Both the position numbers and the translations under genes were made by a program. Below the pieces are notes generated by a model. It made no database searches, was not told the origin of the DNA, and saw only the letters and a program-made list of their open reading frames with translations. Below are positions 8,639-58,734 of a stretch of 64,000 nt of DNA, one piece after another. Positions within the stretch are counted from its first letter, which is position 1; each line of letters begins with the position of its first letter. Origin of the DNA: Pyrobaculum sp. WP30 (lineage in GTDB: Archaea > Thermoproteota > Thermoprotei > Thermoproteales > Thermoproteaceae); NCBI GenBank assembly GCA_001189275.1, contig CP012158.1, positions 868,001-932,000 of the forward strand, read 5' to 3'.

Positions 8639-8655
8639 TAGCGTTTTGGGGGGCT

Positions 8656-9402
8656 GTGAAGATCGTGGTTACAAACGACGACGGTCCCCACAGCCCGTGG
8701 CTTGGGCCTTTGGTGGAGGCGCTGGAGGAGGCGGGCCACGAGGTGGTTGTGGTGGTGCCAGAGAGGCCTAGGTCCGCCGCCGGCTTGGCTAGGACTTATC
8801 ACAAGCCTCTTAGGGTTAGGCGCCTGGGGCGCTACTACGTTGTTAACGGCTTCCCGGCGGACGCGGTGTTTCTTGCGCTTAACCTTGTGTCGCCAGACGC
8901 CGAGTTGGTCTTGTCGGGGGTGAACGTGGGTGAGAACATAGGGGTTGAGGCGACGTATGGAAGCGGGACCGTGGGGGCGGCCATACAGGGTGGTGTGCTG
9001 GGGGCGCGGTCACTCGCGTTGTCTATGGAGGCTGGCGGGGAGGTGGGGTTTATGCGGCGCGTCGTGGTTGCCGCCGTGGAGACCGCCGCTTTTTTAGACG
9101 GGTTTTTGACCGTCAGCGTGAACATCCCGGCGCGCTGGGGCGGCGGCGTTTACTGCGCCAGGAGGCTGGCGAAGGCTGTGTATAGGGAGAGGCTGTACGA
9201 GGGGGTTGACCCCCGCGGCGATAAGTACTACTGGCGCTGGGGGCCCCGCACCGAGGGGTTTGAGCCCGGCACAGACGCGTATTATTTCTACGTAGAGAGG
9301 GGAATCACGGTGCTGGGGCTTTCTGAGGCCGGGGTGGTGCCGGTGGAGGGGTTCGGGAGGGGGTTAGGGACTAGGCTTGGGGTAAAACAAATAAACTGCT
9401 AA
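8656..9402 (+). CDS. surE: 5'/3'-nucleotidase SurE
   Basis: 248 residues from GTG 8656. The SurE fold is clear: the metal-binding NDDG at residues 6-9, VVPERPRSAAG near 35-45, NGFPADAV near 63, LSGVN near 83 and the YGSGTVGAA loop near 98. SurE is a metal-dependent phosphatase that removes phosphate from nucleoside monophosphates. Length is normal. The gene downstream starts directly after its stop codon, so they form an operon. Confidence 0.93.
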   Translation: MKIVVTNDDGPHSPWLGPLVEALEEAGHEVVVVVPERPRSAAGLARTYHKPLRVRRLGRYYVVNGFPADAVFLALNLVSPDAELVLSGVNVGENIGVEATYGSGTVGAAIQGGVLGARSLALSMEAGGEVGFMRRVVVAAVETAAFLDGFLTVSVNIPARWGGGVYCARRLAKAVYRERLYEGVDPRGDKYYWRWGPRTEGFEPGTDAYYFYVERGITVLGLSEAGVVPVEGFGRGLGTRLGVKQINC

Positions 9403-9753
9403 ATGAGACCCGCCGTGGATGTGGTAACCACTTTGCGGTACAGGTTCGTGCGGTACTGCGTAAACAAGGCGTATGCGGAGATGGAGTTGCAGGGGGTGCC
9501 CGCGGAGGTGGTCAACGTATTTGACGACGTCGTGAGCCAGATTAGGGATCTAGAGAAATACTTCACCTCTCTGGACTCCGTGGCGAGGACGCTGAGGGTC
9601 GACCTGCCCGAGAGGCTGAAGGTTTTGAAGGAGCGGGACCCCGCCTTGGCCGAGGCGTTTGTTAAGAAGCTGGTGGAGCACTGCCTCGAGCTGGAGGAGG
9701 TCGCCAATTCGAGGGTTAAGGACTACCTCCGGGAGCTGTTAAGCGGCTTTTAA
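9403..9753 (+). CDS. Conserved hypothetical, helical protein
   Basis: 116 residues; the ATG directly follows the surE stop codon, so the two are translated from one mRNA. The protein is almost entirely predicted helix, with heptad-like stretches (VVNVFDDVVSQIRDLEKY and AEAFVKKLVEHCLELEEV), and it carries two Cys. No family recognised. It could be a small coiled-coil partner of SurE or of the helicase that follows 14 bp later; both are guesses. Confidence 0.7.
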   Translation: MRPAVDVVTTLRYRFVRYCVNKAYAEMELQGVPAEVVNVFDDVVSQIRDLEKYFTSLDSVARTLRVDLPERLKVLKERDPALAEAFVKKLVEHCLELEEVANSRVKDYLRELLSGF

Positions 9754-9767
9754 AGGCCCTACCTTAA

Positions 9768-10967
9768 GTGAGGGTAGTACTATACGCGCCGCCGGGCACC
9801 GGCAAGTCTAGACATGTGGCAGAGGCGGCGGCCCGGAACAGACGCTCTTTGATATTTACCAGGAGCCACCTGGAGGGTCTGCAGATGGCTAGGTACGTGG
9901 CTGAGTTCGGCGGGGAGGCGGGTTTGCTCTTCGGTAGGAAGTCGCTGTGTCCCCTAGGCGCCGAGAACTCCCTGCGGTGTCTAGAGCTGAGGGAGCGGGG
10001 GGTTTGTAAGGCGATGTCCCGCCGGCCTCTGAAGCTTGTCTTTGACGTGGAGGAGCTGTATAAGCAGGGGGTGTGTCCCTACGAGGCTCTCCACGTCGCT
10101 GGCCGGCGGAGTAACGTGGTTGTGCTCCCATTGGCGTACCTATCGAAGGTGTCAAACATATCGGCGGTGGCTGACCTCTTCGAGGAGGTGGATTTCGTCG
10201 CGTTAGACGAGGCGCACAACCTGCTGGCTGTGGTGGAGGTGCGCGACGACGAGCTGTACTCCAGGCGCTACTGCGTAGACGTCTGGGGCCGGGTGATGTG
10301 TCTAGCCCTGCCGCTGGTGGGCGAGCTGGTGGGCAGGTCGAGGCGGCTGGTCGCGGCAAGTGCCTCCATTCTGCGGCATTTCTCCGAGGTTTTTACATAC
10401 TTCCTCAGGGCGGAGTATGTAGAGGTCCCCACGCTCCCCGGCGCGGAGAACCTCGAGGTTGACCTCATCCCGCTTGAGGTGCGGTACCGGACTAGGATGC
10501 GGAGTAGATACGTGGAGGCCGTCGCGGAGGCCGTCCGGCGGGTCTTCGAGGAGTACAGGCGGGCGGTTGTCTTCCTTCCAAATAAAGAACTCGCCGCTTT
10601 TTACATGTCTAAGCTGGGAGGCCTCCCGGTGTCTGAACGCCCCCTCGGCGACATAGACCACGTGGTCGTCACGTACTACGGTAGCCCCGTCTCGGAGGGC
10701 GTTAACCTAGACGTGAAGGCCGGAGTCTTGGTGGGCTTCCCCATACCAGACGTGAAGTCAAGGGAGCTGTGGCTAAAGAGACGTATACTCAACGGGCTGG
10801 GGTTCGATGGTTACAAATACGCGGTGTTGTTCACAGCGGTGAACCACGTGGTCCAAGCCGCCGGCAGAGTGATGAGAAACCTAGCCAGAGAGAAAAAGCT
10901 CCTACTACTCATCGACGACAGGTTTACCCAGTATAGACACCTACTCCCCCCGTATCTCAGGCCCTGA
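9768..10967 (+). CDS. Small XPD/Rad3-like Fe-S helicase
   Basis: 399 residues from GTG 9768. Walker A is APPGTGKS (residues 7-14) and the Walker B box is DEAH near 147. Four Cys at about 61, 71, 80 and 103 have the spacing of the XPD/FancJ iron-sulphur domain. Late motifs include PVSEGVNL and QAAGRVMR, the arginine-finger motif VI. XPD-type enzymes unwind DNA 5' to 3' using ATP. Typical archaeal XPD is about 550-600 residues, so this is a short relative, with the arch domain and parts of helicase domain 2 reduced. It may act in repair with the HerA-like ATPase that follows. Confidence 0.8.
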   Translation: MRVVLYAPPGTGKSRHVAEAAARNRRSLIFTRSHLEGLQMARYVAEFGGEAGLLFGRKSLCPLGAENSLRCLELRERGVCKAMSRRPLKLVFDVEELYKQGVCPYEALHVAGRRSNVVVLPLAYLSKVSNISAVADLFEEVDFVALDEAHNLLAVVEVRDDELYSRRYCVDVWGRVMCLALPLVGELVGRSRRLVAASASILRHFSEVFTYFLRAEYVEVPTLPGAENLEVDLIPLEVRYRTRMRSRYVEAVAEAVRRVFEEYRRAVVFLPNKELAAFYMSKLGGLPVSERPLGDIDHVVVTYYGSPVSEGVNLDVKAGVLVGFPIPDVKSRELWLKRRILNGLGFDGYKYAVLFTAVNHVVQAAGRVMRNLAREKKLLLLIDDRFTQYRHLLPPYLRP

Positions 10968-10989
10968 AGTAGGTTAAAAAAGGGGACAT

Positions 10990-11874
10990 ATGATGTGGGA
11001 GCTTGTCCTCCTAGCGGTGCTTTTCGCCGCTTCTCTAAAAGACGGCATATTCATAGGCATCGGGAAGAGGGGGCCTGTATTTCTTCCGCTTGATAGACAT
11101 GTGATAATCACAGGCCCCACCCGCAGCGGCAAGACCAGCCTCGCCAAGAAGATAATTAAGCGAGCTGGCCTACCTGCCTTGGTGCTAGATTGGCACGGGG
11201 AATACGGCGGGTTGCGGGTGGACGCCAGGTTGCTTAAGATCTCCATTGAGAACTTCGACAAGAAGCTTCTGGCAGAGATCCTCGGCCTCGCCTTGAACCT
11301 CAACGAGCCCAGCGTCTACTTCCTCTACCGCGCCATTAGGCAACGACGCCTAGCCGCGTTGAGAGACATCGTGGCGGCGCTGGAGGACTTCCTAGTCACG
11401 ACGAGGAGCGAGGTGGAGATGAAAGCCGCCATCGCGAGGCGGCTTGAGTATATACTCGACGTGTTTGAAGGCGGGAGGATCCCCCTCGAGAAGCTGTTTA
11501 CCACGAAGAAGACGGTGGCTGTGGACCTATCCCGGCTGAGGCTATACGAGGAGAAGGTCTTGATAGCCCTTTTCGTCTTGGCGTCGCTTTACAACCATCT
11601 TTTTGAGAAGGGGGTGGCGAAGAGGCCCGAGAGGTTGCTGGTGGTAGATGAGGCGCAGAATATCATGAAGCGGGGCGACGTGGTTAGATACCTGGTGTTT
11701 GAAAGCGCCAAGTACGGCCTCAGGGTGGTCCTCGTCAGCAACGAGATGCCGCCGCAGGATCTTCTGGTACATGGGACGCACATAATCACCCAGCCGCACT
11801 ACACCTACAACCTTAAGGTTAAGCGGTCTGCAGTGTTGAGGAACAACGAAGCGGAGGAGCTATGGACGATGTAG
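10990..11874 (+). CDS. HerA-like P-loop ATPase
   Basis: 294 residues starting at ATG 10990 (ATG 10993 is equally possible). A short hydrophobic N-terminus is followed by Walker A GPTRSGKTS at about residues 41-49, LDWHGEYGG near 66 (typical of the HerA/FtsK group), and Walker B RLLVVDEAQN near 215. The C-terminal part has VLVSNEMPPQDLLVHGTHIITQPH, like the sensor region of HerA. Full HerA is about 500 residues, with an N-terminal HAS barrel that is missing here, so this is a shortened HerA-like protein, possibly a DNA-pumping or membrane-linked ATPase. No nurA gene lies beside it. Confidence 0.75.
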   Translation: MMWELVLLAVLFAASLKDGIFIGIGKRGPVFLPLDRHVIITGPTRSGKTSLAKKIIKRAGLPALVLDWHGEYGGLRVDARLLKISIENFDKKLLAEILGLALNLNEPSVYFLYRAIRQRRLAALRDIVAALEDFLVTTRSEVEMKAAIARRLEYILDVFEGGRIPLEKLFTTKKTVAVDLSRLRLYEEKVLIALFVLASLYNHLFEKGVAKRPERLLVVDEAQNIMKRGDVVRYLVFESAKYGLRVVLVSNEMPPQDLLVHGTHIITQPHYTYNLKVKRSAVLRNNEAEELWTM

Positions 11875-12041
11875 AGAAGGTGGTGAGGCTTTTAGGTTTG
11901 GAAATAGATGAGTTAAATCCATGTGACATATATATTAACTACTTTATGCAGTATATCGCAAGTATTGAGAGAGAAATCCACGCAATAAAAGTAAAATCAG
12001 ATATCTTGAGGATAGATGCTTTAAAAATGTCAAAGAAATAA
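11862..12041 (+). CDS. Small hypothetical protein (59 aa)
   Basis: ATG 11862 lies inside the last codons of the HerA-like gene, and the frame runs 59 codons to TAA 12039-12041. The product begins MDDVEKVVRLLGLEIDEL and looks like a real acidic, helical protein. Codon use is more A+T-rich than its neighbours. The 13-bp overlap with the ATPase suggests translational coupling. Function unknown. Confidence 0.5.
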   Translation: MDDVEKVVRLLGLEIDELNPCDIYINYFMQYIASIEREIHAIKVKSDILRIDALKMSKK

Positions 12042-12068
12042 ATAAATAGGAGGAGTTTCTTTAAAAAT

Positions 12069-12437
12069 ATGGCCGATATACGAACCCTCTCGCGTACTTA
12101 CGCCGATAAAACCGATTCCTTCCGCATCAAGCTCATCACCATTAAATTCCTCCAGGGCCAGGTCCAGAACGCCAAGGGCAACCTCATAACCTTCAGGCCG
12201 TCTAAGGTGGCCCAAGACCTCCACCTATACGGCCGCCAGGACCTAAGGGCGAAGACCGTCTTGATTAGGGCCTTCCTCGACGACTTGGTGCAGAGAGGCT
12301 ACATCACAATCATTAAGCGTAGCGCCCGAGGCAAGGTATACGGCCTATACAAAAACAACAAGTTCTGGGACATCCTCACCATACACGAGCCGGAAAAAGT
12401 CCTCGAGTTGTTGGAGGCGGAGAAAATAGGCACCTAG
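12069..12437 (+). CDS. Winged-helix-like DNA-binding protein (predicted)
   Basis: 122 residues. The layout of helices followed by a two-strand wing (KTVLIRAFLDDLVQRGYITIIKRSARGKVYGLY) matches winged-helix regulators. It is basic in the middle and acidic at the C-terminus (EPEKVLELLEAEK). An AGGAGG ribosome-binding-like stretch and A+T-rich DNA (AAATAAATAAATAGG) precede the ATG. No exact family recognised; a transcription regulator is an inference from the pattern. Confidence 0.6.
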   Translation: MADIRTLSRTYADKTDSFRIKLITIKFLQGQVQNAKGNLITFRPSKVAQDLHLYGRQDLRAKTVLIRAFLDDLVQRGYITIIKRSARGKVYGLYKNNKFWDILTIHEPEKVLELLEAEKIGT

Positions 12438-12477
12438 CCTGAGCATTGGCGTTAAATACCTAAACACCCCTCCTTAG

Positions 12478-13368
12478 GTGGACGCCGTAGAGCTCTTACA
12501 GTTTTTACGCAGAAAATACAAGAAAGACAGCTACAAGGCGGCTCTTGTTGGGACCTACAAAGACGGACGATACGTGGAGCCCCCGCCTCTCCAGACAAGC
12601 ATGTATCTGTTCCTCGCGCCTCTGATGCTGTCGGCGGTTCCAGTATTTCTAGTAAAAAACATGTGGCTCCAGTGGGCCGCCGGCGTCGCGGTGATACTCG
12701 GGGCCTACATGGCCCTGTATCTATACCTCAAGAAAAACTGCCTAATCCCAGACGAGGTCAGGGTCGTGCGGACAAACCACGGAGATGTGGAGAGCCTCAG
12801 GAGGAACAAGCTAAAGATCCTCGAAAACCCCTCAGCGCTCCCCGACGACTACGAGCTCTACTACGCGCCGCCCGGCGTGTGCGTGGCGCGGGACAAGAGA
12901 GCAAACGCCTTCACCCTAGACGGGCCCCTCGGACCCGTGATATACTTCACCACCGGGCTCTTCGCAAGGCTTGGGCCCGAGGAGCTCCAGGCGGTGTTGG
13001 AACACGAGAGGGGGCACATCAAGTATAGACACACCCACAAACTCCTCGCCTTCCTCATCGCCGAATACACGTTGCGCCTCCCGCTGGTCCACCTAGTATA
13101 CGCAAAATACTCCATCACGCTCCTCGCCTTCCACCTAATAGGCGTAGCCTTCCTCTTCACCGCGGTGTTGCAAGCCTTCGAGTTCGAGGCGGATAGATAC
13201 GCCGCGGCGAGACACAGAGACCGCCTCGTCTCCGCGCTCGTCAAGCTGGACTGGAACGGCATAGTGGAATCCGTCATAAGCCCCCTCGCCGCCAGACTCA
13301 CCCTACTAGCCAGGTCGCACCCCCTGACCATTGACCGGATAAGGAAGCTCGATGCAGTTCCTCACTAG
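12478..13368 (+). CDS. HtpX-like M48 metalloprotease
   Basis: 296 residues from GTG 12478. The zinc site HERGH (an HExxH motif) lies near residue 178, with the third ligand in FEFEADRYAA near 236. Membrane helices lie at about 42-60 and 64-83, and further hydrophobic stretches after the active site at about 190-230. This matches membrane-bound HtpX/Ste24-type peptidases that trim or remove misfolded membrane proteins. All catalytic residues are present. The gene overlaps the next one by 17 bp, indicating an operon. Confidence 0.88.
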   Translation: MDAVELLQFLRRKYKKDSYKAALVGTYKDGRYVEPPPLQTSMYLFLAPLMLSAVPVFLVKNMWLQWAAGVAVILGAYMALYLYLKKNCLIPDEVRVVRTNHGDVESLRRNKLKILENPSALPDDYELYYAPPGVCVARDKRANAFTLDGPLGPVIYFTTGLFARLGPEELQAVLEHERGHIKYRHTHKLLAFLIAEYTLRLPLVHLVYAKYSITLLAFHLIGVAFLFTAVLQAFEFEADRYAAARHRDRLVSALVKLDWNGIVESVISPLAARLTLLARSHPLTIDRIRKLDAVPH

Positions 13369-41018: not shown

Positions 41019-41531
41019 TCAGTTAGTAAAAATAGTAGAAATAACAAAAACTTGTAAATCTTGTCTAATGTATTTTCGTAAAATCTTTATATAGTTGTTT
41101 TTGAATAAATTTTCAATCTCTTTAGGTTCATATGTCAATGCTTCTTTATGTTTTACACGATAAGTCTCCACTATCACATACCCTTTCGAAATTCTTACTA
41201 ACTCGCTGGCCACCTGGGGCCACTCTTGTTTGCTTTGTAGAAACATAAAGATATGTGTAAAGAGCACTGTATCGAACGCTTTTTGTCTTATCGGCATATG
41301 TGTTGGGTACGCTACTATATCAGGTCTTGTGTTGGGTGAAGCATCTACTCTCACTACAAATGCGCCGAGGTTTTCTAGATATTTTGAATTCCGCCATGTG
41401 GAACATCCAAAGTCGATGACACGTTGCAGTGGTTTTTCTACGGTTTCTAGTAGTAATCTCACACCTGTGCTCCTGGGCGCCTTAATTTTACACTTAGCGC
41501 AGTACTGTTCTCTAAGTATTCTGATGCGCAT
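41019..41531 (-). CDS. Class I SAM-dependent methyltransferase (small)
   Basis: 170 residues. The SAM motif VIDFGCSTWRNSKYLENLGAFVVRVD lies at about residues 38-63, followed by PIRQKAFDTVLFTHIFMF (motif IV region, near 80-97). An N-terminal CAKCK could be a small metal site. The ATG overlaps the 3' end of the next methyltransferase gene on the same strand by 20 bp, so they are co-expressed. Substrate unknown; close neighbours suggest DNA or a defence-linked small molecule. Its DNA is A+T-rich. Confidence 0.75.
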   Translation of the reverse strand: MRIRILREQYCAKCKIKAPRSTGVRLLLETVEKPLQRVIDFGCSTWRNSKYLENLGAFVVRVDASPNTRPDIVAYPTHMPIRQKAFDTVLFTHIFMFLQSKQEWPQVASELVRISKGYVIVETYRVKHKEALTYEPKEIENLFKNNYIKILRKYIRQDLQVFVISTIFTN

Positions 41532-42621
41532 ACCTTACTACTGCCTGGAATTGATTACGTCCGATTTTCCTTATGGCTTTCGGCTTTCCCAATCGAAGGA
41601 CTATTTCAAGAAAGTCGGCATAGCTATACCGCCTGAAGGCCGACACGGCGTTGTAGACCGAGACGGCTACTTCACGTCTCGAAATTCTCTTTACCTCATT
41701 TAACACCTTTTCTTCATCCTTCAGGAATGGCAGGACATTCCAGAAAATTGAGACATCTATGGCCTTGTCACGTATGGGAAGCGCATGGGCATCCGCCACA
41801 ACCTTGTCGATCAGGAGACCGTTTCCACGTTCTCTCAATACTTTTTCGTCAATATCTAGGAGCACGACATGACGGGCTCCATGCCTGATGCCGAAAGCCC
41901 CCTTTGTGCCATAGCCGCAACCAATATCTGCAACCACAGCATCACGGAAATCAACGAGATGGAGGAGTTGCGGTATCGAGTATCTGGCGACAAAGCCTCT
42001 GACTTTTCTTAATATGATAGCGTCTTGAGAATAAAAACTAGGCTTTATAAGAAATTCATTTGGTGTAATAAAACCAGTTTCAATATAGTAATAAAGATCT
42101 GCCCAATAATCCTCATTTCGTAACAACCTGCCCACATCACCTAGCTTTTCACTAAATGGTAGATTACGATGTAATTCAAAGAGCGAAGGATATAGCGTCC
42201 TGAGAAATGCTAGTGCCTCCTTGGCCTTTGATTCCGACATTTTTGCACATTTAGCTATATCGTATACATCGCCGCTACACCACTTCAATGAGTTATACAT
42301 TACAGCAATATTCCCAAAAAAAGCCTCTAAAATACTATAATTAGGTCCACGTTTGAAGTCCGCTCTCAATAGGCCAAGGTCTATATAACGCCGAAGAGGC
42401 GGCATACGGCGCTCATCCAATACACATGGCACTCTAAATTCCGATAATTTGCCTACTCCATTTCCTACTACAACGGCATATCTATCTGTCTTATAATTAA
42501 CGGTTTTATTTTTAGAAATAACATCAAGAATTTCACAAGAAACATCAAAACCTAGGAGAGGCAAGAAAAGCAAACGTACTGCTCCGACAGTTTTTTTGAT
42601 GTCTTGGACTACCAGATCCAT
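41512..42621 (-). CDS. SAM-dependent methyltransferase with long N-terminal region
   Basis: 369 residues from ATG 42621; a longer frame to 42669 would cross the divergent promoter. The C-terminal third is a class I fold: VVADIGCGYGTKGAFGIRHGARHVVLLDID near residues 225-255, then DAHALPIRDKAIDVSIFWNVLPF. The N-terminal 200 residues contain a helix-turn-helix-like stretch (VYDIAKCAKMSESKAKEALAFLRTLYP). It could methylate DNA or RNA at a site recognised by that part. Divergent from the DndC-like gene, sharing a TATA region. Confidence 0.75.
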   Translation of the reverse strand: MDLVVQDIKKTVGAVRLLFLPLLGFDVSCEILDVISKNKTVNYKTDRYAVVVGNGVGKLSEFRVPCVLDERRMPPLRRYIDLGLLRADFKRGPNYSILEAFFGNIAVMYNSLKWCSGDVYDIAKCAKMSESKAKEALAFLRTLYPSLFELHRNLPFSEKLGDVGRLLRNEDYWADLYYYIETGFITPNEFLIKPSFYSQDAIILRKVRGFVARYSIPQLLHLVDFRDAVVADIGCGYGTKGAFGIRHGARHVVLLDIDEKVLRERGNGLLIDKVVADAHALPIRDKAIDVSIFWNVLPFLKDEEKVLNEVKRISRREVAVSVYNAVSAFRRYSYADFLEIVLRLGKPKAIRKIGRNQFQAVVRYAHQNT

Positions 42622-42630
42622 AAGTACAAC

Positions 42631-42641
42631 TGATTTATAAT
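42631..42641. promoter_or_regulatory. Shared TATA element between methyltransferase and DndC-like genes
   Basis: TGATTTATAAT reads as a TATA-like box on both strands. The GTG start at 42659 is about 23 nt to the right and the ATG at 42621 about 15-20 nt to the left, so one short element may drive both leaderless mRNAs. Confidence 0.4.
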
Positions 42642-42658
42642 GAGCAGATTCCACACAT

Positions 42659-43840
42659 GTGCGAATCATTTTGGTTAAAAAACAGAACTTCCGAGACTTT
42701 TCCCCCTTTAGGGAGGCTGCTAAGAGGTATACACACTTAGTAGTTGCCTATTCCGGGGGGAAGGACTCCACGGCTACTGCGATCTACCTGTACCATTGGC
42801 TCAAGGAAGATCGGCCGAATATAGGAGTCTCCTTGCTCTATAACGATACTTTAAGCGAAGTAAACCCGCTGGAGAGCTGGGTGAGGAGCTTCATGTCGCA
42901 GTTTAGAGAAAAAGCCGGAAAATATGTTGAGGTGAAGACTAGGATTGCCAGACCTGAAGCTTTAAAGACTTTTTTCTGGCGGGTATATGTCAGGGGCTAC
43001 CCAGCGCCGACGTTTGTCTTTAGGTGGTGTGTCGACCATCTAAAGCTAGAACCTCTGTTGAAGGAGGTGAAAAATCTAAAGGGGGCTGTAGTCGTAACGG
43101 GCCAGCGCGATGAAGAGAGCGGCGCTCGGGCTGCATCTATGAAGAAAATGTACGGTAGCTGCCTGCCTGGGTCTTGTGCTGGAGCGTTTTTCGCAACCAA
43201 TGGCGAGGTGCCGAAGCTGGCCCCAATACGGTTCTGGACGACTAGAGATGTGTGGCACTTTTTGCTCTACGAACAAAGAGATTTCGACATCGAACCGCTG
43301 GTAAATCTCTATATGCTAGATAGAAATACTTTAACATCGGCTGGGGGGAGGTTTGGATGTTGGCATTGCACGCTTGTAAAGACGCATTCTGCACTTTTCT
43401 TCGGAGGTAAATTGTACGGATATGTAGAGGCTCTACGGCTGATATATAAGGTTGTGTCCGATATTAAAGATCTAAGAGTTCCCAAGACAGGAGGCTACAG
43501 TAAACTAGGCCCACTCACCCCGCTGGCGCGTTCGATTGTCTATAATCTCGTGCCTATAGTTGAAGAAAAGAGCGGACATAGATTCTATGGACTCGACGAG
43601 ACATCCATAGGCGGCGCAACGTTAAGGGAAATCTTCTATATCATACCTGAAGAGAAGGCAGATAGAATCGTCAGAAGTGTGGACGATACAAATAGATGGA
43701 TCGGCATGAGACATCTGAGAAATATAGAAAAGATATTATATCAACAAATTGAAGATAAAATTATCGAAAAAATGAAAGAGTACGACCATCTAAGCATAGT
43801 TATCCGCTTTGCAGAAGAACTTCTTAACCAACTTCGTTAA
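42659..43840 (+). CDS. DndC-like PP-loop (PAPS-reductase fold) enzyme
   Basis: 393 residues from GTG 42659. The PP-loop SGGKDS is at residues 32-37, followed by FRWCVDHLK (Cys 124), GQRDEESGARA (near 150), SCLPGSC (Cys 168 and 173) and GRFGCWHCTLV (Cys 234 and 237). This set, especially GCWHCT, is the DndC/SspD pattern: an ATP-pyrophosphatase with Fe-S-type cysteines that activates DNA for sulfur insertion in phosphorothioation systems. A related PAPS-reductase-like protein (BrxP) occurs in type 4 BREX. No DndA, DndD, DndE or PglZ is present, so the reaction here is uncertain. Converges with the nuclease gene (4-bp overlap). Confidence 0.75.
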   Translation: MRIILVKKQNFRDFSPFREAAKRYTHLVVAYSGGKDSTATAIYLYHWLKEDRPNIGVSLLYNDTLSEVNPLESWVRSFMSQFREKAGKYVEVKTRIARPEALKTFFWRVYVRGYPAPTFVFRWCVDHLKLEPLLKEVKNLKGAVVVTGQRDEESGARAASMKKMYGSCLPGSCAGAFFATNGEVPKLAPIRFWTTRDVWHFLLYEQRDFDIEPLVNLYMLDRNTLTSAGGRFGCWHCTLVKTHSALFFGGKLYGYVEALRLIYKVVSDIKDLRVPKTGGYSKLGPLTPLARSIVYNLVPIVEEKSGHRFYGLDETSIGGATLREIFYIIPEEKADRIVRSVDDTNRWIGMRHLRNIEKILYQQIEDKIIEKMKEYDHLSIVIRFAEELLNQLR

Positions 43841-45732
43841 GAAGCCGTTAGCACCTCTCTCCAAGCCTGCTCAACGGTCTTTCTGATCTGTTCAGCATCT
43901 TCCTGAGTCATGTCTTCTATTTTTGCTTTTTTAAGCATCATGTGTAGGCTATTTATTGTGGCTAGATCTATATGCGTTAAATCAGAGCCCACCTCCGATA
44001 CAAATACTTCATTGATACCGTAAAGCTTTCTGTATTCTTCGAAAATTCTAAACGGGAACCTTAAGTTAGCGCTTATGGGAGTAACAACGGCACAGACGCC
44101 TGGGCACTCATGCCCATAAATCTCTTCGCCTTTTAGCAATACTTGTTCTACCTTTGCGGTCAAGACCATGCCTAAGGTCGGTGTATATACATGTTCATCA
44201 GGCAAGGCGATTATTACAGGTTGTCTTTCTCTGAGGCCATAGATAGGTATGACTTCCTTCGTCGTTGGCGTCTCGCAAGGAAGATAGTCGCGTAACAACA
44301 ATAGAGCTTCTTTACCTATCGGTTTAACCATATAAACACCAACCCTTATTTCTCTATTGAAATCTATTTCTTCGAAATCTACCTCTATTACGCTACATCT
44401 ATGCTTATATCTTTGTGTATGTGGTGAAGTCTTTTTATGTCTCCGCACATTGAAATCACCATTAGTAACAGAAACTTGATACCACACGCCTTCTTTGAGA
44501 TCTTTCAGAAGAGTCTTCATTCCGCCAACCTTTTTTCCAATCTCGTAAAGAACCCTATAGGGAACGAGCGCGCTTTCTCTTTCCCTGTACACTATACCTC
44601 TAAATTTCCACATAAGTCTATCAATTAAATCCTTTTCCTTTGACCCAAAATAGAATCTACATTCATCTAATTTACTGTTTTCACTACTAAATGGACAAAT
44701 TTTACATTGCCAGAAATTTTGCTTTACAGGATTTCCACGAGACATACCAGGTGGTGTAAGCCTAAGAGCATTGTATTCGCCGCTACCAAGACGCACTTTG
44801 CACTGCTCTTGTAGGTCATAATACTTCAGCCCATCACCGCAACACAAAGTTCCGAAGTCGACCAATAGTGATGCCATGTATATAGCGATATCTACGACAT
44901 GGCGTAATCTTTTTCTAAGCTCTCCTATATCTACTTTAGATCGTACCGAGAGCGGCATGAGCGGATGGTCTGAGTAAATGCCGTTAGGCCTGATTATGGC
45001 GTAATAGATCTTTGTCTGATCCAAGTTGTCAGGTGCTATCGCTGTAAACACTTCTGACGGCTTATATCCAAGCCTCAGAGCCTCTAGAATGGCATAGGCG
45101 TAGAGCTGATACTTCTCCCGCTGATTGGGCGTATTGCCGGTAGTTTTCCAGTCTATCACAATAGCCTTTTTGGTGTCGGGATCCTCAATGATAACGTCTG
45201 GAGTGCCCCATATGTGAGTCTCGTAATCCAGTAATTGGAGCTCCACGTAGAATTTAATATTATTGTTAAGATTCATGGTGGTAGATATATTTTTATATAA
45301 TTTAGCAAAATTATTTAACATTAATAATGAATTGTTATATGTTTCCTTAGTAATTTCATCTATATAGCCTTCAGCTTTCTCTATGGCTATTTTCAAGATG
45401 TCCTCCATCTTTGGTGGGATATCTTCATTTCCGTTTCTCATATGTTTTGCCAATTCTAGTGTTGCCAGCGCTAATACTTTGTGTGCATCTGAGCCTTTGC
45501 CAGGTATGTTTTCTCGGATTAATGAGGCTCTTACTCCTAAAGTCGATAAAAGCCTCGCCGCATATGTACATACGGATCCCCAAGCAACTGCAGTGGCTCG
45601 AGTAATATGCCCCGTGATTTTTAATGAGTTTCGAAAGATATCGACACAAATCTCTTTATTTCCTTCGTCAACGTATTCATAACTCCTTAAATACTCCAGG
45701 TAATTATTTATAAAGTAATATTCGGCACTCAT
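43837..45732 (-). CDS. RecB/Cas4-type PD-(D/E)XK nuclease
   Basis: 631 residues. The nuclease core is GTPDVII (Asp 179), VIDWKTT (Asp 194, Lys 196) and QLYAYAI (Gln 209), the RecB motif set. A later Cys cluster (QCKVR, then CKICPF and ECRFY near residues 325-355) with one Cys before the group looks like the Fe-S seal of Cas4, AddB and Dna2. The C-terminal 250 residues are beta-rich and unassigned. It overlaps the SF1 helicase gene by 4 bp; together they look like Dna2 split into two chains, probably degrading invading or broken DNA ends. Confidence 0.75.
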   Translation of the reverse strand: MSAEYYFINNYLEYLRSYEYVDEGNKEICVDIFRNSLKITGHITRATAVAWGSVCTYAARLLSTLGVRASLIRENIPGKGSDAHKVLALATLELAKHMRNGNEDIPPKMEDILKIAIEKAEGYIDEITKETYNNSLLMLNNFAKLYKNISTTMNLNNNIKFYVELQLLDYETHIWGTPDVIIEDPDTKKAIVIDWKTTGNTPNQREKYQLYAYAILEALRLGYKPSEVFTAIAPDNLDQTKIYYAIIRPNGIYSDHPLMPLSVRSKVDIGELRKRLRHVVDIAIYMASLLVDFGTLCCGDGLKYYDLQEQCKVRLGSGEYNALRLTPPGMSRGNPVKQNFWQCKICPFSSENSKLDECRFYFGSKEKDLIDRLMWKFRGIVYRERESALVPYRVLYEIGKKVGGMKTLLKDLKEGVWYQVSVTNGDFNVRRHKKTSPHTQRYKHRCSVIEVDFEEIDFNREIRVGVYMVKPIGKEALLLLRDYLPCETPTTKEVIPIYGLRERQPVIIALPDEHVYTPTLGMVLTAKVEQVLLKGEEIYGHECPGVCAVVTPISANLRFPFRIFEEYRKLYGINEVFVSEVGSDLTHIDLATINSLHMMLKKAKIEDMTQEDAEQIRKTVEQAWREVLTAS

Positions 45733-47336
45733 GTCTTTATTCTCTGTCTACCTATGTTTAGAAAGACGCCGGCGATGCCTGGTCTTTGAGTTGACATGCT
45801 TCTGCCTTGCTTAGTAATTTCTACGCCTGTAAGGCTCAGCAATGTATCAATGGTTTTTCGTATCATTGAGCTTTTTTCTGCTTCCCTTCTCTCTCCTTTT
45901 ATACCAGATACTTTCGCAATTCTGGCCGCGACGTTTCGTAGTCTTATCGCATCTCCAACAATTATGAGCATAGCTCTATGCCTGCTAAGTTGCACATTCA
46001 GCAGATTGGGATCTTGGAAATAAACGGTTTGCATATCCCTTTCTCCATATCGCTCCTTACCCAACATCGCGATAACTATATCAGCTTCTTTACCTAACAT
46101 AGTATTAATAGTTGCAAAATGGACATGTCCAAATCTACCATATTTTGAGTAGTAATTAACTTTTGCAACTAAGACGAGGTCTTGATAGGGTCCAACTACA
46201 GCAATTTCCAGTTGGGGATACAGGCAACGGAAGAGGGAAGCTAAGCCAATAGCTATTTTCACTCTATAGGGCTCCACTCTCTCACTTGGCGGATAACTCT
46301 CCTTCGTATTGATAACTATCAACGGCAGAGAAGAGGACAATGCCTGCTCAACTGTTTTAAGAACATTAAAAGGTAAGTCGATATTATTACATTTTCCCCA
46401 TCTTTCTCGCCATTGATTTAATTGTAAAGTATTTACTCTTTCATAAAATTTATAGTAAGCACGTAACCCTCCCAGTTCCTCATAGAATCCTTTATGAAGA
46501 GGCCTCTCGGTCGGCTCCGGCAACCTCAAGGTGATGCCGATGTGTTTGAAAAGGGACTCGACAACCCCCTCCTCTTCCAGCAACTGCCTGACTTTAGGCA
46601 AGATGAGAAGTTGTTCATTATATCTATATGCCTCTTCTAGTCCGATCGCCTGTCTCTCATCTCCAACCACAAACAGATGACGCATGACGCCCCGGCTTTC
46701 CTCCATTAAATCCTTGAGGGCAAGATCCGAGAGAGGAGTATAAGGCAAATAGAGAGGCGACGTGGACGCCTCATCTACAAACAGCGAAAAAAGTTTTTTA
46801 GTCTTCAAGCGAGCTGAAACTCTCTGGAACTCCGTCGAGATGGCGATTTTTACGTCTTCTGTGATTCTTCCTCCTATCACTTCTCTGAGCATATCTGGGC
46901 TAATGTTCGTACACTCCCTCAATAACCCGTCGTTACTTTCAGAAATAAACGGCGGCGGTAAAAGCGAGCCATAGAGCCTCACCGACCGTAAAAACTCCTT
47001 TGCGGTGTCGCAGTCATGTACTGTTAGGGAGAGAAGACGCTCGAAGGCGCTGATGACTAGCTCGTTCGTGGGAGCCTCATATAGAAAGACCGTGTTACTT
47101 TCGCGTAGAGCCTCCTCTATCTTGGAATCAATCATTACAGCCTCCGCAATCGTTGTTTTTCCAACACCCGGCGGCCCTCTTGAGGCGCCATAGGGCCTTT
47201 CGCCCTCATCTAGGTATATCTTCTTAGCAACCTCGAACGCCTCTTTAAGATCGTTGGTACTGAACTTTAGCTGACGTCGCTCTCCTTTTTCGATCTGGGA
47301 GAGGAAAAGCGTAGAAATAGTTCTTATTCTTACCAT
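45729..47336 (-). CDS. SF1 helicase (Upf1/Dna2-like)
   Basis: 535 residues. Walker A GPPGVGKTT lies at residues 54-62, motif II FVDEAST near 190, VGDERQA near 220, then TINTMLGKEADIVIAML near 415 and NVQLSRHRAMLIIVGD near 448, the late motifs of SF1B Upf1/Dna2 helicases. These enzymes translocate on single-stranded nucleic acid. Its stop overlaps the start of the nuclease gene, and it overlaps the unknown 375-aa gene upstream by 7 bp, so it belongs to a four-gene operon. Confidence 0.8.
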   Translation of the reverse strand: MVRIRTISTLFLSQIEKGERRQLKFSTNDLKEAFEVAKKIYLDEGERPYGASRGPPGVGKTTIAEAVMIDSKIEEALRESNTVFLYEAPTNELVISAFERLLSLTVHDCDTAKEFLRSVRLYGSLLPPPFISESNDGLLRECTNISPDMLREVIGGRITEDVKIAISTEFQRVSARLKTKKLFSLFVDEASTSPLYLPYTPLSDLALKDLMEESRGVMRHLFVVGDERQAIGLEEAYRYNEQLLILPKVRQLLEEEGVVESLFKHIGITLRLPEPTERPLHKGFYEELGGLRAYYKFYERVNTLQLNQWRERWGKCNNIDLPFNVLKTVEQALSSSLPLIVINTKESYPPSERVEPYRVKIAIGLASLFRCLYPQLEIAVVGPYQDLVLVAKVNYYSKYGRFGHVHFATINTMLGKEADIVIAMLGKERYGERDMQTVYFQDPNLLNVQLSRHRAMLIIVGDAIRLRNVAARIAKVSGIKGERREAEKSSMIRKTIDTLLSLTGVEITKQGRSMSTQRPGIAGVFLNIGRQRIKT

Positions 47337-48457
47337 ATTCTTATAGACATTGCTATAAATCTTTTTATATAATTTTCTAACATTTCACGAGGCCTATCTA
47401 AATAATCTATAGGCAAATATTTGCTAAAAAGCACAGCAAATTCCCTATGTCCTAATTTGTGTGCTACATAAAACTGTCCAACGGTAGCCAAGGTATAGGA
47501 CGAGACATCTAGATAGACATCGCTTTTGGTGTAATATAGGGTCCCGCCGCCAGATTCAACGATCTGGAAGGCGCCTCTGACGACAGAGAACCAGTTTTCG
47601 ATTAGAGCGCTCCTGATATTACTTAAAATATATACATGAGCTTTATTAATTTGATTTAATATTTTATTTAATGTATTTATTTCATCTGTGGTTATGTAGC
47701 TTCTGTTTAATATGTCAAGTAAAACGTTCTTTACTGACGAACCTAACCCAGTAATTAGAAACCTATATCTGCTCCGTGCCGCTCCTTCTAACACATCTAC
47801 TAAATATACAAAATCTTCTGATAATAAATTGAAAAACAGCATAGGAGATATTATAGTTTTATATATTTTATACTTATCGCCTCCTTGTGATTTTGTAGAA
47901 TTTATAAGTGTCTTAATGTTTGGCCGTAAGTCTCCGAGGATATCTATCTGTGTCCCTTCCTTCATAATTCCTGTAGTAGTTAAGCTAAGCACAGCCGGCC
48001 AAATATGTCCAACAACATCGTCCAACGTTAAGCTGACCTTACCCCATGTGATAAAGCTATCATGCGTTAAAAGTTGCTTAAATGCGATGGGAAGCTCTGG
48101 AAGTCTATATTCTAATGTATGTTTGTTAATAACAAAAAGCAAAATAAACGCGTTTCGCGCCGTGTAAAACTTATTTCCGTCTTGGGAAACCTCGAGGTCA
48201 TAGCTAGAGGCAAATTCCTCAAACCATTTGTTCAATCTATCGATACAATTGACAACATTCGAAAAATATTTTGAGGTTTTACTCTTTTGGAATATATTGT
48301 ATAAACTGTAAAACGGAATATAATCTGATTTTATGGCGTTTTCATAAATCTTTGTATAGTCGAGAGATTTTCCACCCGTGGAGCTACAGGCAATTAGGGT
48401 CTTTATTCCTTCTTGAATGTACTCATTGGTAGGGTTGAGTATGGTTGGCGTCGTCAT
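47330..48457 (-). CDS. Unknown protein of the ATPase-helicase-nuclease operon
   Basis: 375 residues, A+T-rich, mostly helical, with many Asn, Ile, Lys and Tyr residues. No P-loop, metal motif, membrane helix or Cys cluster is visible. It lies between the ATPase (4-bp overlap) and the helicase (7-bp overlap), so it is an obligatory partner in the operon. It could be a structural subunit, as DptG is in Dnd restriction modules, but I see no direct resemblance. Confidence 0.65.
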   Translation of the reverse strand: MTTPTILNPTNEYIQEGIKTLIACSSTGGKSLDYTKIYENAIKSDYIPFYSLYNIFQKSKTSKYFSNVVNCIDRLNKWFEEFASSYDLEVSQDGNKFYTARNAFILLFVINKHTLEYRLPELPIAFKQLLTHDSFITWGKVSLTLDDVVGHIWPAVLSLTTTGIMKEGTQIDILGDLRPNIKTLINSTKSQGGDKYKIYKTIISPMLFFNLLSEDFVYLVDVLEGAARSRYRFLITGLGSSVKNVLLDILNRSYITTDEINTLNKILNQINKAHVYILSNIRSALIENWFSVVRGAFQIVESGGGTLYYTKSDVYLDVSSYTLATVGQFYVAHKLGHREFAVLFSKYLPIDYLDRPREMLENYIKRFIAMSIRIW

Positions 48458-50037
48458 ACCTTATTCATCGCCTCTAGAATACGTGTTATAAACTCTTCCT
48501 CGACCTTTTGTTTTGAATAATCTTTGACCCCGACTGGCGTAGTTACATCATTATAGGCAACTATGAGGTTAAATACGTCATCATATGTTACTTTTATTGG
48601 CAGTATTTTAATATCAACTCTATTACCATTGATTGTAGTTTTCATAATAGCCCGTTGTATTTTAGCAACATTTACATTATCATAATAGAGTAGAATGAGA
48701 ATACATTTGCTCTCCTTTCCTTTGCGCTTTTCTGTTTGTTGCAAGCAGTGAGATAGAGGCTCGCGGTAGGCGCTTGAAAACGCTTTTTTGAATGTTTCCT
48801 CTGACTTAACGTCTGTGGTTCTCAGCATGATGATGTAGGTCGCTTGTGTACCAATATAGTAGCTACCTTCATATCCGGTTCTTTTTACAGGTATTGGAGG
48901 CGTCTCAAGGTTTGCCATTATCTTGGTTAAGAGCAATGTTAATATTTGTCCTAATGAATTTGCAAGTTGATTTGAGGAGTAAGGTTTTTTACTTTCATAT
49001 ATTCTATATATTTCATATCTGCCTGTCAGCTCTTCATTGAGTATTTTACGGGGGTTGATAATTTCACGGTCTAACGCTTTTTCTACAGACTGTGCAATCG
49101 CCAAATTTAGTATGTAGAAGGAGTTGAAAGCAGGTAGAACTAATAAACGCGATAAGACGCGTTGGGTTTCTTTTTCAAAAAACGACGAAACCAGTTGTTC
49201 ATAAATTTGCTCATTAAATGACAATTGTTTATTTAAATCATCAAGTGCCTTTTCTATATATCTTTTTATGCTGTCTAGGTTATATTTGACATGTATCGAT
49301 CCATCTGGACTGTTTGCCACCGCACGACCCAATGCGGGCATAGCGGTTTCTTTGATATATTTCTCCATTTGCTGAGAGGGGTAAACAACCTCTTGAACTA
49401 GATATAATAAACTAAGCTTGTGAGGATGCGTCTCCATAACGCCCGGTCTCAGCGCTTCCAACGTAGATCTAATATAGTCAAATACATCTTGTTTCGACTT
49501 TCTGCCTAATAATACCTCGATGCCTTCAAATTCGTCTATTATAATCATTAGTCGCTTATCCGCATTATCTGCTAAATCCATCAAGAATTCACGGAAGACT
49601 TCAACGGGCCGTCTTTTTTGAGCCATATCTATATATCGCATATAGTTGCTACATACTGTAGAGATTGGTTTTTCGTTTGTTATCATGAAAACCCCGTGTC
49701 GTTGATTAATAGGTATATTTAAACCCTTGCAAATTATATTTATAATATCTATTATATTTCCTACTGACGATTTAATATACATGTTTGCGATTGTACGTAG
49801 ATTAACGTATAGTGCGTCCATTTTGCCGCTCTGTCTGGCATCGTGATACACCTGGAACCCGTATCCGTAGGTTTTACCGCTACCATATAATCCCTTTACT
49901 AAGGTCAAACCTGAGCTCATCACTACGATGTCGTAGTCTTCTGGCTTTGCAAGAAGTACGGGCCCCTCAGGATTAAGATAACGTGGATTTTCAGCGTTCC
50001 ATTTTCTTAACAACTCGAAAACATCCACACCAGCCAT
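48454..50037 (-). CDS. P-loop ATPase heading the four-gene operon
   Basis: 527 residues. Walker A GLYGSGKTYG lies at residues 49-58, Walker B RLMIIIDEFEG near 162-172. The region between has a LYVNLRTIAN segment. The C-terminal 200 residues are mixed and contain TQATYIIMLRTTD and ILILLYYDN. The early GLxGSGKT and IIDEFEG motifs are those of AAA-type ATPases of defence modules such as DptF, SspC or BrxC, but the protein is much shorter than BrxC. The exact family is not recognised. First gene of the operon; the promoter region lies beyond 50037. Confidence 0.7.
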   Translation of the reverse strand: MAGVDVFELLRKWNAENPRYLNPEGPVLLAKPEDYDIVVMSSGLTLVKGLYGSGKTYGYGFQVYHDARQSGKMDALYVNLRTIANMYIKSSVGNIIDIINIICKGLNIPINQRHGVFMITNEKPISTVCSNYMRYIDMAQKRRPVEVFREFLMDLADNADKRLMIIIDEFEGIEVLLGRKSKQDVFDYIRSTLEALRPGVMETHPHKLSLLYLVQEVVYPSQQMEKYIKETAMPALGRAVANSPDGSIHVKYNLDSIKRYIEKALDDLNKQLSFNEQIYEQLVSSFFEKETQRVLSRLLVLPAFNSFYILNLAIAQSVEKALDREIINPRKILNEELTGRYEIYRIYESKKPYSSNQLANSLGQILTLLLTKIMANLETPPIPVKRTGYEGSYYIGTQATYIIMLRTTDVKSEETFKKAFSSAYREPLSHCLQQTEKRKGKESKCILILLYYDNVNVAKIQRAIMKTTINGNRVDIKILPIKVTYDDVFNLIVAYNDVTTPVGVKDYSKQKVEEEFITRILEAMNKV

Positions 50038-50169: not shown

Positions 50170-50730
50170 CACATAGAACTATAGCTTAGACGCCCCTGAC
50201 CCTCTCCCGGCGGGTTTGAGCACGGCAAGCGCCTCCTCTACATCCTCTTCGCTGGGGTTTCGGCTAGTTATTACTGGAGGGCCTCGGACTCCGGCTGTCC
50301 GCCTTGACCACCGAGGCGAGACACAGGTATTCAGCTCTATGAGGAAGAAGGCTGGGAAGTCCACGTTCCTAGGCGCCTCCGCCCGCAACACGAAGGCTCA
50401 GTAGAAACCTGACCGCGCCGCGGGGCATCTGTCTTCCGCCAGCTCACCGGAGTCCCGCCGCGGTGGTGGGCGGAGGTGTTCTGTGGCGTTTTCGATTACG
50501 GCGAGGAGAAGGCCGCGGTTTCTGCAGGCGTTGTCTCTTCCTATCTCCTCTACTGCTACAGACTGCCCTCCTCCCCGCGGCTTCTGCGCCACCTTGCAGA
50601 GGCGGTTGCGCAACCCGTCGGTGCTACTTGCCGCAGACGTTGCGCCCTTAAGGGCCTTGACTACCTGGCTACAGACAAAGGCGGCGGGGCGCTTGGAGCT
50701 TGATACGGTGAGGAATCCACAGTCCGGCAT
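50170..50730. repeat. Dispersed segment, copy A
   Basis: This stretch and 54650-55240 (copy B) are diverged direct copies. Shared landmarks in order: TTTCGGCTAGTT, GACxCAGGTATTCAGC, GCGCCGCGGGGCATC, CCGCCGCGGTGGTGGGCGGA, CTTCTGCGCCACCTTGCAGA and GCCCTTAAGGGCCTTGA. The minus strand of both copies holds a 110-codon frame (here 50398-50730) with the common text VVKALKG, RNRLCKVAQKPR and CRNRGL, so a gene family lies beneath. Both copies look degraded. They flank the restriction-modification cassette on either side. Confidence 0.6.
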
Positions 50731-54660: not shown

Positions 54661-55240
54661 CAGTTAATGCCTTCTCCACAGCCTCTTCGCTGTGAGTTTC
54701 GGCTAGTTGCCAAAGGCGCTGGCTTTTGCACTCCTTGAGGACCTCGGGCTCCGGCGGGCCCGATGCCGCCTCGCTGTCTCTGGATGCGGCATCTGTCCGC
54801 CTCGGCCGTAAAGGGCGAGACGCAGGTATTCAGCCCTACGAGGAAGAGGGCTGGGAGGTCCGCGTCCCAAGGCGCCTCCGCTCCCAGCCGGCAAGGCTCA
54901 GCATGACTCCCCCCGCGCCGCGGGGCATCCGTCCTCCGCTGGCTTACTGGATTCCCGCCGCGGTGGTGGGCGGAGGTGTTTTGCGGCGTCTTCAACTACG
55001 GCGAAGAAGAGGCCGCGGTTTCTGCAGACGCCGCCTCTACCTGCCGCAGACCGCCCTCCTCTCCGCGGCTTCTGCGCCACCTTGCAGAGGCGGTTGCGCG
55101 GTCCGCCGGTGCCGCTCGCCGCAGACGCTACGCCCTTAAGGGCCTTGACCACCTGGCCGCCCTCGACGTGGGCGCAGAAGCGGTTTTTGAAGGCACGGCG
55201 CCGGGTTGCAAGCTTGAGAAGACGGCCCACGTCGACGACA
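54650..55240. repeat. Dispersed segment, copy B
   Basis: Direct diverged copy of 50170-50730 (see copy A for shared landmarks). The minus-strand frame at 54898-55230 is again 110 codons and shares VVKALKG, RNRLCKVAQKPR, CRNRGL and AEDGCPAAR with copy A, then a stop at the same place. At its left end the minus frame adds RLWQLAETHSEEAVEKALTAMIL. Several internal insertions and deletions separate the two copies. Confidence 0.6.
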
Positions 55241-55798: not shown

Positions 55799-55993
55799 TC
55801 CGGCACTGCGAAGAACGGCGCACTTTCTCCGCCTTTTCTCTCTCTTTTCTTTCTTCGGGGCGCCGAAGAATGGCGCGTCGATTTTACCCAACTCCGAATG
55901 AAATGAATGTAAAGCGTGGTTTCAAGCCGACCGCCGAGAAGACAAAAAACCAAAGAAAAACTTAAAAACCCGCAAGAACTAAGAACACAAGCG
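55799..55993 (+). promoter_or_regulatory. CRISPR leader 1
   Basis: About 195 bp directly upstream of the first repeat. It contains a pyrimidine-rich run (CTCTCTCTTTTC), the CTTCGGGGCGCCGAAGAA hairpin and a TATA-like AAACTTAAAAACC about 25-40 nt before the first repeat. It is nearly identical, in inverted orientation, to the leader of the second array (58735-58930). Confidence 0.75.
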
Positions 55994-56819
55994 GTAGAAT
56001 CTCAAGAAGGGTTGAAACGCTCTTGGCCGCGTGCAGGATTTTTCAATGTTATCACTAAGTAGAATCTCAAGAAGGGTTGAAACTATTTTGAACTGCGCTA
56101 TGAGCTTAACAACTCCGTCTTGAGTAGAATCTCAAGAAGGGTTGAAACTTCCCTTTTGTAGCATCTTATTGTATCACAAATCTTATTCACTGTAGAATCT
56201 CAAGAAGGGTTGAAACAAAAAGTCGCCTTCACTCGTGCTAGTCATCTTCGCGAAAAGATCGTGTAGAATCTCAAGAAGGGTTGAAACTTATTAGTAGTGT
56301 TGGGCGGTTTACTGGCGGAAACAAGAGGAACGTAGAATCTCAAGAAGGGTTGAAACTCGCTAAGTGCGACGTACTGCTCCAACACCTCCCTCAGCTCTTT
56401 GTAGAATCTCAAGAAGGGTTGAAACAGAAACCGTAATTACCCATGCCTCCAGGTCTTCAATGTAGAATCTCAAGAAGGGTTGAAACCTGTTTCATAATCC
56501 TTGCGGACGGCATAGTGGAGCAAAGTAGAATCTCAAGAAGGGTTGAAACGCTACCTGCGCGTAGCGCCTCAATGTTGGGCTCGCCTGTATAGTAGAATCT
56601 CAAGAAGGGTTGAAACACCACGACACGCTGGCCACCACCCGACTCCACTGGCAGCTCGCGCTAGAAACTCAAGAAGGGTTGAAATCTTCCTTCTTCGAGC
56701 CGCAACCATGGCCCTCACCTCTTCTTTCTAGAATCTCAAGAAGGGTTGAAACGAGAATTTGTCTAGCACGCCGCACAGCTCTCCGTGGCATTTGCTAGAA
56801 TCTCAAGAGGGGTTGAAAC
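55994..56819 (+). CRISPR. CRISPR array 1: 13 repeats, 12 spacers
   Basis: The 25-nt repeat GTAGAATCTCAAG + AAGGGTTGAAAC occurs 10 times without change, then three times with changes at the leader-distal end (CTAGAAACTC..GAAAT; CTAGAATCTC; CTAGAATCTCAAGAGGGG). Spacers are about 36-46 nt. The array reads left to right from leader 1. No cas gene is recognisable in the window, so interference machinery must be elsewhere. The GTTGAAAC end is typical of archaeal type I-A/I-B-like repeats. Confidence 0.95.
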
Positions 56820-57681: not shown

Positions 57682-57965
57682 AGCCTCGACGCCGTGACTC
57701 GACGGAGTCAAGTCTCGAGAGGTCCTCACCGTGGAGCTGGTGGTCTGCCTCTGCGCGGCTTTAAGACAGCGGCTAAGCAGAGCGCCTCCAGGCGAGGATC
57801 ACAGGCACGTCCCCCTCCACCAGAGCCGGCGGGTCGGCCTATGCCGACTTCGCCCCAGCGGCGAAGCAGAGAACCGTATTTAACGCCGTCTCACTCCGTT
57901 GACAATTCCAACTGAGATTCTACCCCCAGGCGGGCCGGCGTGGATTCAGGCCCACCCGGGACGGG
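57682..57965. other. Non-coding tail between arrays
   Basis: No convincing gene. Near 57911-57923 the sequence AACTGAGATTCTAC looks like a shortened CRISPR repeat, marking the old end of array 2. The remainder is G+C-rich with short inverted repeats. Confidence 0.3.
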
Positions 57966-58734
57966 ATTTCAACCCTTCTTGAGATTCTAGCCTCTACTCC
58001 AAAGAGGTGGCGGAGTATGTGCGTCAGGAAATAAAGTTTCAACCCTTCTAGAGATTCTAGTATTGCGCTAATAGCCGCTGGGTATGGTTTGTCGCTGTTG
58101 ATCCAGTTTCAACCCTTCTTGAGATTCTGGATCATCATGCGTTGTTTGATCTTCTCCACGCGGGCGAAGCCTGTGTTTCAACCCTTCTTGAGATTCTACG
58201 CATATTTCAGCCCGCAGGCGCCTGCGGGCCGAGGGCAGAGATCCGTTTCAACCCTTCTTGAGATTCTACTTGCACTACGCTGTCCGTGAGGGAGATGTAG
58301 AACTTATGTTTCAACCCTTCTTGAGATTCTACACTGTCCTATTGAACGCGCTACCATTAAATGCACTTCCAAGACGGTTTCAACCCTTCTTGAGATTCTA
58401 CACAGCGCTTCGGCGCATCGATACCTCGTCGACATATATGGCTGTTTCAACCCTTCTTGAGATTCTACCTGGGTATGCGTTGAGTGCGGTTCGGTCATCA
58501 AACCAGTCTACATGTTTCAACCCTTCTTGAGATTCTACGGCATCGACCGGCCGCTACTCAATGTTGCGAGAATAAAAGTTTCAACCCTTCTTGAGATTCT
58601 ACTATTGAGCTGGTGCAGAAGATGAACCTCGTGGAGTGCGTGTTTCAACCCTTCTTGAGATTCTACCAAGAAGAGCCGCGACTACGACGACTGCTTCATG
58701 GAATGTTACGTTTCAACCCTTCTTGAGATTCTAC
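57966..58734 (-). CRISPR. CRISPR array 2: 12 repeats, 11 spacers
   Basis: Same 25-nt repeat as array 1 in reverse orientation (GTTTCAACCCTTC + TTGAGATTCTAC). Nine repeats are perfect and the three farthest from the leader (57966, 58036, 58106) carry changes. Spacers are about 38-46 nt. It is read right to left from leader 2, so the two arrays converge. One spacer (58201-58245) contains a perfect 20-bp palindrome, centred between 58219 and 58220. Confidence 0.95.

Follow-up and report, generated by a model that had tools for sequence, protein, structure and literature searches.

In the genome of Pyrobaculum sp. WP30 we describe a seven-gene cluster that we regard, with a probability of roughly 70%, as a modification-restriction defence system in which a sulfur mark on self DNA is coupled to a helicase-nuclease. 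The cluster is assembled around a DndC-like PP-loop sulfur-transfer enzyme, and its core recurs, as a physically linked set of genes, across the Thermoproteota.

Gene content and genomic setting

The cluster occupies positions 41019-50037 of the window (the whole 64-kb stretch of DNA analysed), which is part of a complete genome of 1.99 Mb. A small and a large methyltransferase (MTase) gene (41019-41531, 170 aa, and 41512-42669, 385 aa, both on the minus strand) are followed by the plus-strand gene of the DndC-like enzyme (42659-43840, 393 aa), which faces a minus-strand operon encoding a Cas4/AddB-type Fe-S PD-(D/E)XK nuclease (43837-45732, 631 aa), an SF1 helicase of the UPF1/Dna2 group (45729-47336, 535 aa), a protein without family match (47330-48457, 375 aa; hereafter the ATPase partner) and an AAA+-like ATPase (48454-50037, 527 aa). 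Recomputed ORF coordinates bore out the seven genes, their orientations and the 4-7 bp overlaps given in an earlier, sequence-only reading: within the operon, nuclease and helicase overlap by 4 bp, helicase and ATPase partner by 7, and ATPase partner and ATPase by 4, while the DndC-like and nuclease genes converge with an overlap of 4 bp. The large MTase and DndC-like genes overlap by 11 bp (divergent starts, as called) and the two MTase genes by 20 bp.

Because the cassette has a GC content of 0.41 inside a window of 0.55, a horizontal acquisition is suggested. On its left are an nSTAND3-like NTPase of 1599 aa and an AAA protein of 1185 aa, on its right a C5 DNA methylase with a HhH-GPD glycosylase, and two CRISPR arrays (55987-56819 and 57961-58734) carry related repeats (GTAGAATCTCAAGAAGGGTTGAAAC) in opposite orientations; the linkage to giant STAND-like NTPases, R-M genes and CRISPR claimed before was thus all found in the window. 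Signs of a defence island extend to other copies, with CRISPR also in L058 and DUF1156 genes in L059, besides the STAND-like NTPases. The C5 DNA methylase and the glycosylase share the segment 51063-54227 with a 357-aa ORF that may encode the restriction enzyme of an R-M pair, and are flanked, just beyond the cassette, by a direct repeat of ~340 bp (50315-50669 and 54814-55157, 81-88% identical, 4.5 kb apart) that is a possible insertion or duplication boundary. A similar methylase with a HhH-GPD-like gene was found near the cassette of L028 (16242-18422).

The DndC-like enzyme

The DndC-like protein contains the motifs SGGKDS, GQRDEESGARA and GCWHCT, and its proposed identity as a DndC-like PP-loop enzyme was borne out by profile matches (PAPS_reduct 6.3e-14, PADLOC DndC 6.9e-34). 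Its closest curated family is DndC, and the DndC models outscore those of BrxP and SspD by far, but TIGR03183 reaches 108 bits against a cut-off of 290 bits. The DndC-like proteins form one clade (support 98/97), separate from the phylum's canonical DndC (100/100), whose genes belong to regular dnd loci and have DndD-, DndE- and DndA-like neighbours. As in canonical DndC, the clade keeps the PP-loop SGGKDS, FRWC and the GCWxCT cysteines, and most of its members have an extra cysteine pair (C168/C173). The main PAPS-reductase-family protein of the genome (L001) is encoded by a different gene and sits on a branch of length about 4. None of the viral contigs searched matched the DndC-like profile.

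The DndC-like gene stands alone in two genomes, G037 (fused, in an apparent mobile element) and G485 (at a contig edge). At L030 of Thermoproteus sp. AZ2, a 1122-aa protein (2232-5600, minus strand) carries the DndC-like domain at its C-terminus and adjoins a 2337-aa protein (5620-12633, minus strand), with neither helicase nor nuclease; the locus has the appearance of a mobile element that turns the modification to its own use. A second type of DndC-like cluster was observed at L104 (3377-10969, G458) and L105 (3876-11457, G468), where the DndC-like gene is accompanied by a ~1000-aa helicase of the DpdJ/BrxH/DISARM type, a protein of ~800 aa that ends in a DrmC-like (PLD) part, and a protein of ~300 aa without assigned family (families read on L105); these loci, to which L101 may be related, represent another candidate DndC-type defence system.

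The helicase-nuclease pair and its ATPase

The nuclease (PDDEXK_1 3.3e-7) has C55, H84, E164, D179, K196, Q209, Y213, C343, C346 and C358 invariant in alignment A9, and its four cysteines, predicted to bind a Cas4/AddB-type Fe-S cluster, are kept in 16 of 16 loci irrespective of genomic context (see below). In the helicase (AAA_12 8e-9) the Walker A and B motifs are invariant, and the profile's nearest PDB relatives are UPF1/NAM7 (3e-13) and DNA2 (4.7e-7), so that the earlier label 'split Dna2-like' is apt. The Dna2/AddAB-type combination of an SF1 helicase with a four-cysteine Fe-S PD-(D/E)XK nuclease is found here as two polypeptides.

The ATPase carries Walker A (GLYGSGKTYG) and Walker B (IIIDEFE) motifs, and its matches to AAA families (e.g., AAA_22) are all weak. 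Its AlphaFold model (mean pLDDT 69) aligned in Foldseek with AAA+ ATPases (E 2.9e-5), and it looks like a AAA+ protein, which is a class assignment only because the TM-scores are low. The ATPase partner is predicted to be mostly helical and has homologues in L027, L028, L029 and L059; it matched no family in Pfam, PADLOC or NCBIfam, and its model (mean pLDDT 44) gave no fold match in Foldseek and is not usable. By hhalign, neither the ATPase (probability 0.1) nor its partner showed similarity to DUF499.

The methyltransferases

The small MTase (Methyltransf_11 4.6e-7) is a TehB-like class I SAM methyltransferase with an N-terminal CxxC and the motif DFGCSTWRNSKYL; it matches TehB above the Pfam cut-off and TehB of known structure (PDB 2xva) at E 4.5e-4, and is 52-55% identical across the three other full loci. 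The large MTase (Methyltransf_11 1.1e-10) combines an uncharacterised N-terminal domain with a class I SAM MTase domain, and its orthologues are 42-44% identical with motif I intact. Among 397 genomes, the large MTase was recovered from the four with intact seven-gene clusters, from one with decayed genes (G021) and, in fragmentary form together with the small MTase, from G040. The latter locus (L117, 1486-2674) retains the MTase domain of the large MTase and the small MTase, adjoins a 359-aa ORF and has no DndC-like gene. Neither MTase has a strong match to DNA-MTase families, and MTases of small molecules are among their closest profiles.

Compounds of S, Se or Te are the substrates of TehB relatives, so the TehB likeness of the small MTase provides the sole hint of S-methylation. 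A double mark, in which the DndC-like enzyme would add sulfur to DNA and the MTase pair (encountered almost only with DndC-like genes, in Thermoproteales) would methylate that sulfur, appears improbable to us; if true, the resulting methylthio mark on DNA would be a new one.

Recurrence across the Thermoproteota

An order-wide search recovered DndC-like proteins of ~50% identity from four other genomes and a fragmented copy from a fifth, and a scan of the genome contigs with two short peptide patterns returned four loci. All seven genes were found together, by HMM scan, in three other genomes (G025, L027; G029, L028; G031, L029); as they recur there at 19-55% identity with invariant catalytic residues, the cluster is not a chance assembly. 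Five of the seven genes run to the end of a 6-kb contig (L034), and in G021 (L031) nothing but the decayed DndC-like and MTase genes remains. Gene order varies among the copies, while the large MTase and DndC-like genes are always divergent and the nuclease and helicase genes always in tandem. Right after the cassette of L028 (10355-16176), we observed a 1257-aa DEAD helicase (SngC/BrxHI/DrmA-like) and a 683-aa protein without matches.

A wider search (398 genomes of the phylum and the class of G209) added members of the DndC-like clade in six genomes (G212, G209, G266, G051, G524 and G548), each time with the helicase and the nuclease in the immediate neighbourhood. In total, 11 loci link the clade to the helicase-nuclease pair, which confirms that the DndC-like gene co-occurs elsewhere with homologues of the operon, and its neighbours in these loci include no recurrent genes for tRNA modification or sulfate assimilation, contrary to what an enzyme of tRNA or sulfate metabolism would have led us to expect. 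Of the 398 genomes of the phylum, 13 matched the nuclease profile; 8 of these also have the DndC-like gene and 5 lack it, while 2 genomes carry the DndC-like gene without the nuclease (Fisher p=4e-12, with no correction for kinship, the linked copies spanning several families and being strongly divergent).

The ATPase profile matched 5 of 397 genomes, every one with the DndC-like gene. Among the six genomes of the wider search the ATPase and its partner are present in G266 alone and the MTases in none; therefore the conserved unit is a three-gene core (DndC-like enzyme, helicase, nuclease), to which the ATPase-partner pair and the MTase pair are optional additions. The four-gene operon proposed as a unit consequently stands in its helicase-nuclease part, while the ATPase and its partner are separable. 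G266 has two ATPase-family genes, and its locus (L059) contains a second, shorter PAPS-reductase-like gene (4478-5284, 268 aa) between ATPase and nuclease.

Exchange of the modification half

In the five genomes with the nuclease and without the DndC-like gene, the helicase-nuclease pair resides in loci with two large genes (L070-L074), mostly with an additional MTase. In L070 these encode a DUF1156 methylase (HmaB 3e-52) and a DUF499 ATPase (HmaC 1.8e-68); the other four loci were assigned by sequence likeness to L070, and DUF499 also by alignment. HMM E-values in the five loci range from 1e-94 to 1e-66 for the nuclease and from 1e-109 to 1e-102 for the helicase. These loci belong to the Hma or DUF499-centred BREX-related systems (PMC8565338, PMC12839542). 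The nuclease tree splits the two contexts fairly well (93/90), and in the helicase tree the same split is unsupported (43/26).

Every nuclease found in the 398 genomes is adjoined by a DNA-modification gene. Since the same pair adjoins the DndC-like gene in some genomes and DUF1156/DUF499 genes in others, the most economical interpretation makes helicase and nuclease a restriction half with an exchangeable modification half, in which the DndC-like enzyme fills the DNA-modifying slot. The pair is accordingly a partner of the DndC-like gene in 11 loci, but not an exclusive one. Such an exchange has a precedent in BREX type 4, whose methylase is replaced by a PAPS reductase (PMC12839542), and fusions of Cas4-like domains with SF1 helicases are reported with methylases (PMC5704561).

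Comparison with known systems

The cluster is none of Dnd, Ssp, BREX type 4, Pbe or Hma, as a defining feature of each was sought and not found; we class it as a modification-restriction variant that uses a DndC-like enzyme. With Dnd (DndABCDE with DndFGH or PbeABCD) it shares a DndC-family enzyme bearing SGGKDS, FRWC and GCWxCT, and the pairing with a putative restriction half. It differs in that DndA and DndB are absent from the cluster, DndE has no match among the seven proteins, and the best DndD match genome-wide (TIGR03185, 51.8 bits against a cut-off of 245.85) is not near the cluster; moreover, the DndC-like protein belongs to a separate clade and has 393 aa (canonical DndC about 480-510), and the restriction half is an SF1 helicase with a Fe-S nuclease instead of DndFGH or PbeABCD. 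PbeABCD, which comprises the PLD-helicase PbeA and the SMC-like PbeC (PMC6459918), was rejected, as none of the seven proteins matched a PLD or SMC/ABC family. No dedicated cysteine desulfurase lies beside the cluster, and the genome shows weak aminotransferase-V matches elsewhere.

BREX type 4 and Ssp (SspBCD) likewise place a PAPS-reductase-family modifier and an ATPase where a methylase would be, whereas our cluster keeps the DndC-type GCWxCT cysteines and has no Pfam, PADLOC or NCBIfam match to PglZ, BrxL, DUF4007/SspB or SspC among its seven proteins. Within the cluster, the absence of known subunits (DndD/DndE, SspB, PglZ) asserted in the sequence-only reading was borne out. Hma and DUF499-centred systems have a homologous helicase-nuclease pair in the five Thermoproteota loci, but in our cluster, which matches neither DUF1156 nor DUF499, the DndC-like gene replaces the methylase and the ATPase has no profile similarity to DUF499. 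Finally, the UvrD-Cas4-like fusions with Mod/Res or Dcm (described in PMC5704561) also unite an SF1 helicase, a Cas4-like Fe-S nuclease and a DNA-modification gene; here the setting is archaeal, the proteins are separate, the helicase is of the UPF1/Dna2 type and the partner is DndC-like. We found no account of this gene set in the literature searched (main texts of openly accessible papers).

Alternative explanations

The helicase-nuclease could be a Dna2/AddAB made of two proteins that serves DNA repair or recombination and carries the DndC-like enzyme and the MTases as passengers or regulators, as its resemblance to UPF1/DNA2 and Cas4/AddB would allow, and as is illustrated by the unfused UvrD/Cas4-like operons that Clostridiales have outside a defence context (PMC5704561). 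We deem this unlikely, given that the pair is very patchy (13/398 genomes), is always adjoined by a DNA-modification module (of two unrelated kinds) and lies here in a low-GC island near CRISPR, STAND-like NTPase and R-M genes. A different division of labour, in which the system would act in a type IV-like manner on DNA with foreign modification and the DndC-like enzyme would be a sensor or antidote rather than a self-marker, fits the lack of a DndE/SspB-like specificity subunit among the seven proteins, and the DndC-like domain in the apparent mobile element (L030) would suit counter-marking. Against it, we know of no sensor role for DndC-family proteins, and the PP-loop and cysteines are conserved as for an active enzyme; the pair also accompanies DUF1156 methylases, which are proposed self-markers (PMC12839542), so that we hold this arrangement to be unlikely.

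It seems very unlikely that the DndC-like enzyme thiolates tRNA or other RNA, or serves sulfur metabolism, its association with the pair reflecting a stress or abortive response. Membership in the broad PAPS-reductase/PP-loop superfamily and the generic class I nature of both MTases, with their small-molecule relatives, would be compatible with such a function, yet the 11 linked loci have no recurring genes of these pathways, the main PAPS-reductase-family protein of the genome is another one, and DndC remains the closest curated family.

Proposed mechanism and implications

The modification-restriction reading is strengthened by the occurrence of the pair in Hma/DUF499-type methylation systems and supported by the 11-locus linkage, with its unit redrawn to three genes. 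We infer that the DndC-like PP-loop/Fe-S enzyme would spend ATP to attach sulfur to host DNA (a phosphorothioate in the backbone being the likeliest form) and thereby label self DNA, while SF1 helicase and Fe-S PD-(D/E)XK nuclease would together form a two-protein, Dna2- or AddAB-like motor-nuclease that unwinds and degrades DNA without the mark, presumably that of viruses. The Pyrobaculum/Vulcanisaeta form further includes the AAA+ ATPase and its helical partner, which probably act as a unit for recognition, loading or licensing, and the two class I methyltransferases, which may join the modification half.

Few defence systems besides CRISPR and R-M are known from hyperthermophilic archaea (PMC12988326), to which this reading, if true, would add a DndC-type system devoid of DndD/DndE or SspB/PglZ. 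One archaeal helicase-nuclease effector would then switch between methylation-type and DndC-type self-marking, and a question becomes testable: is the restriction half bound to one chemical mark, or may any obstacle to the motor be enough?
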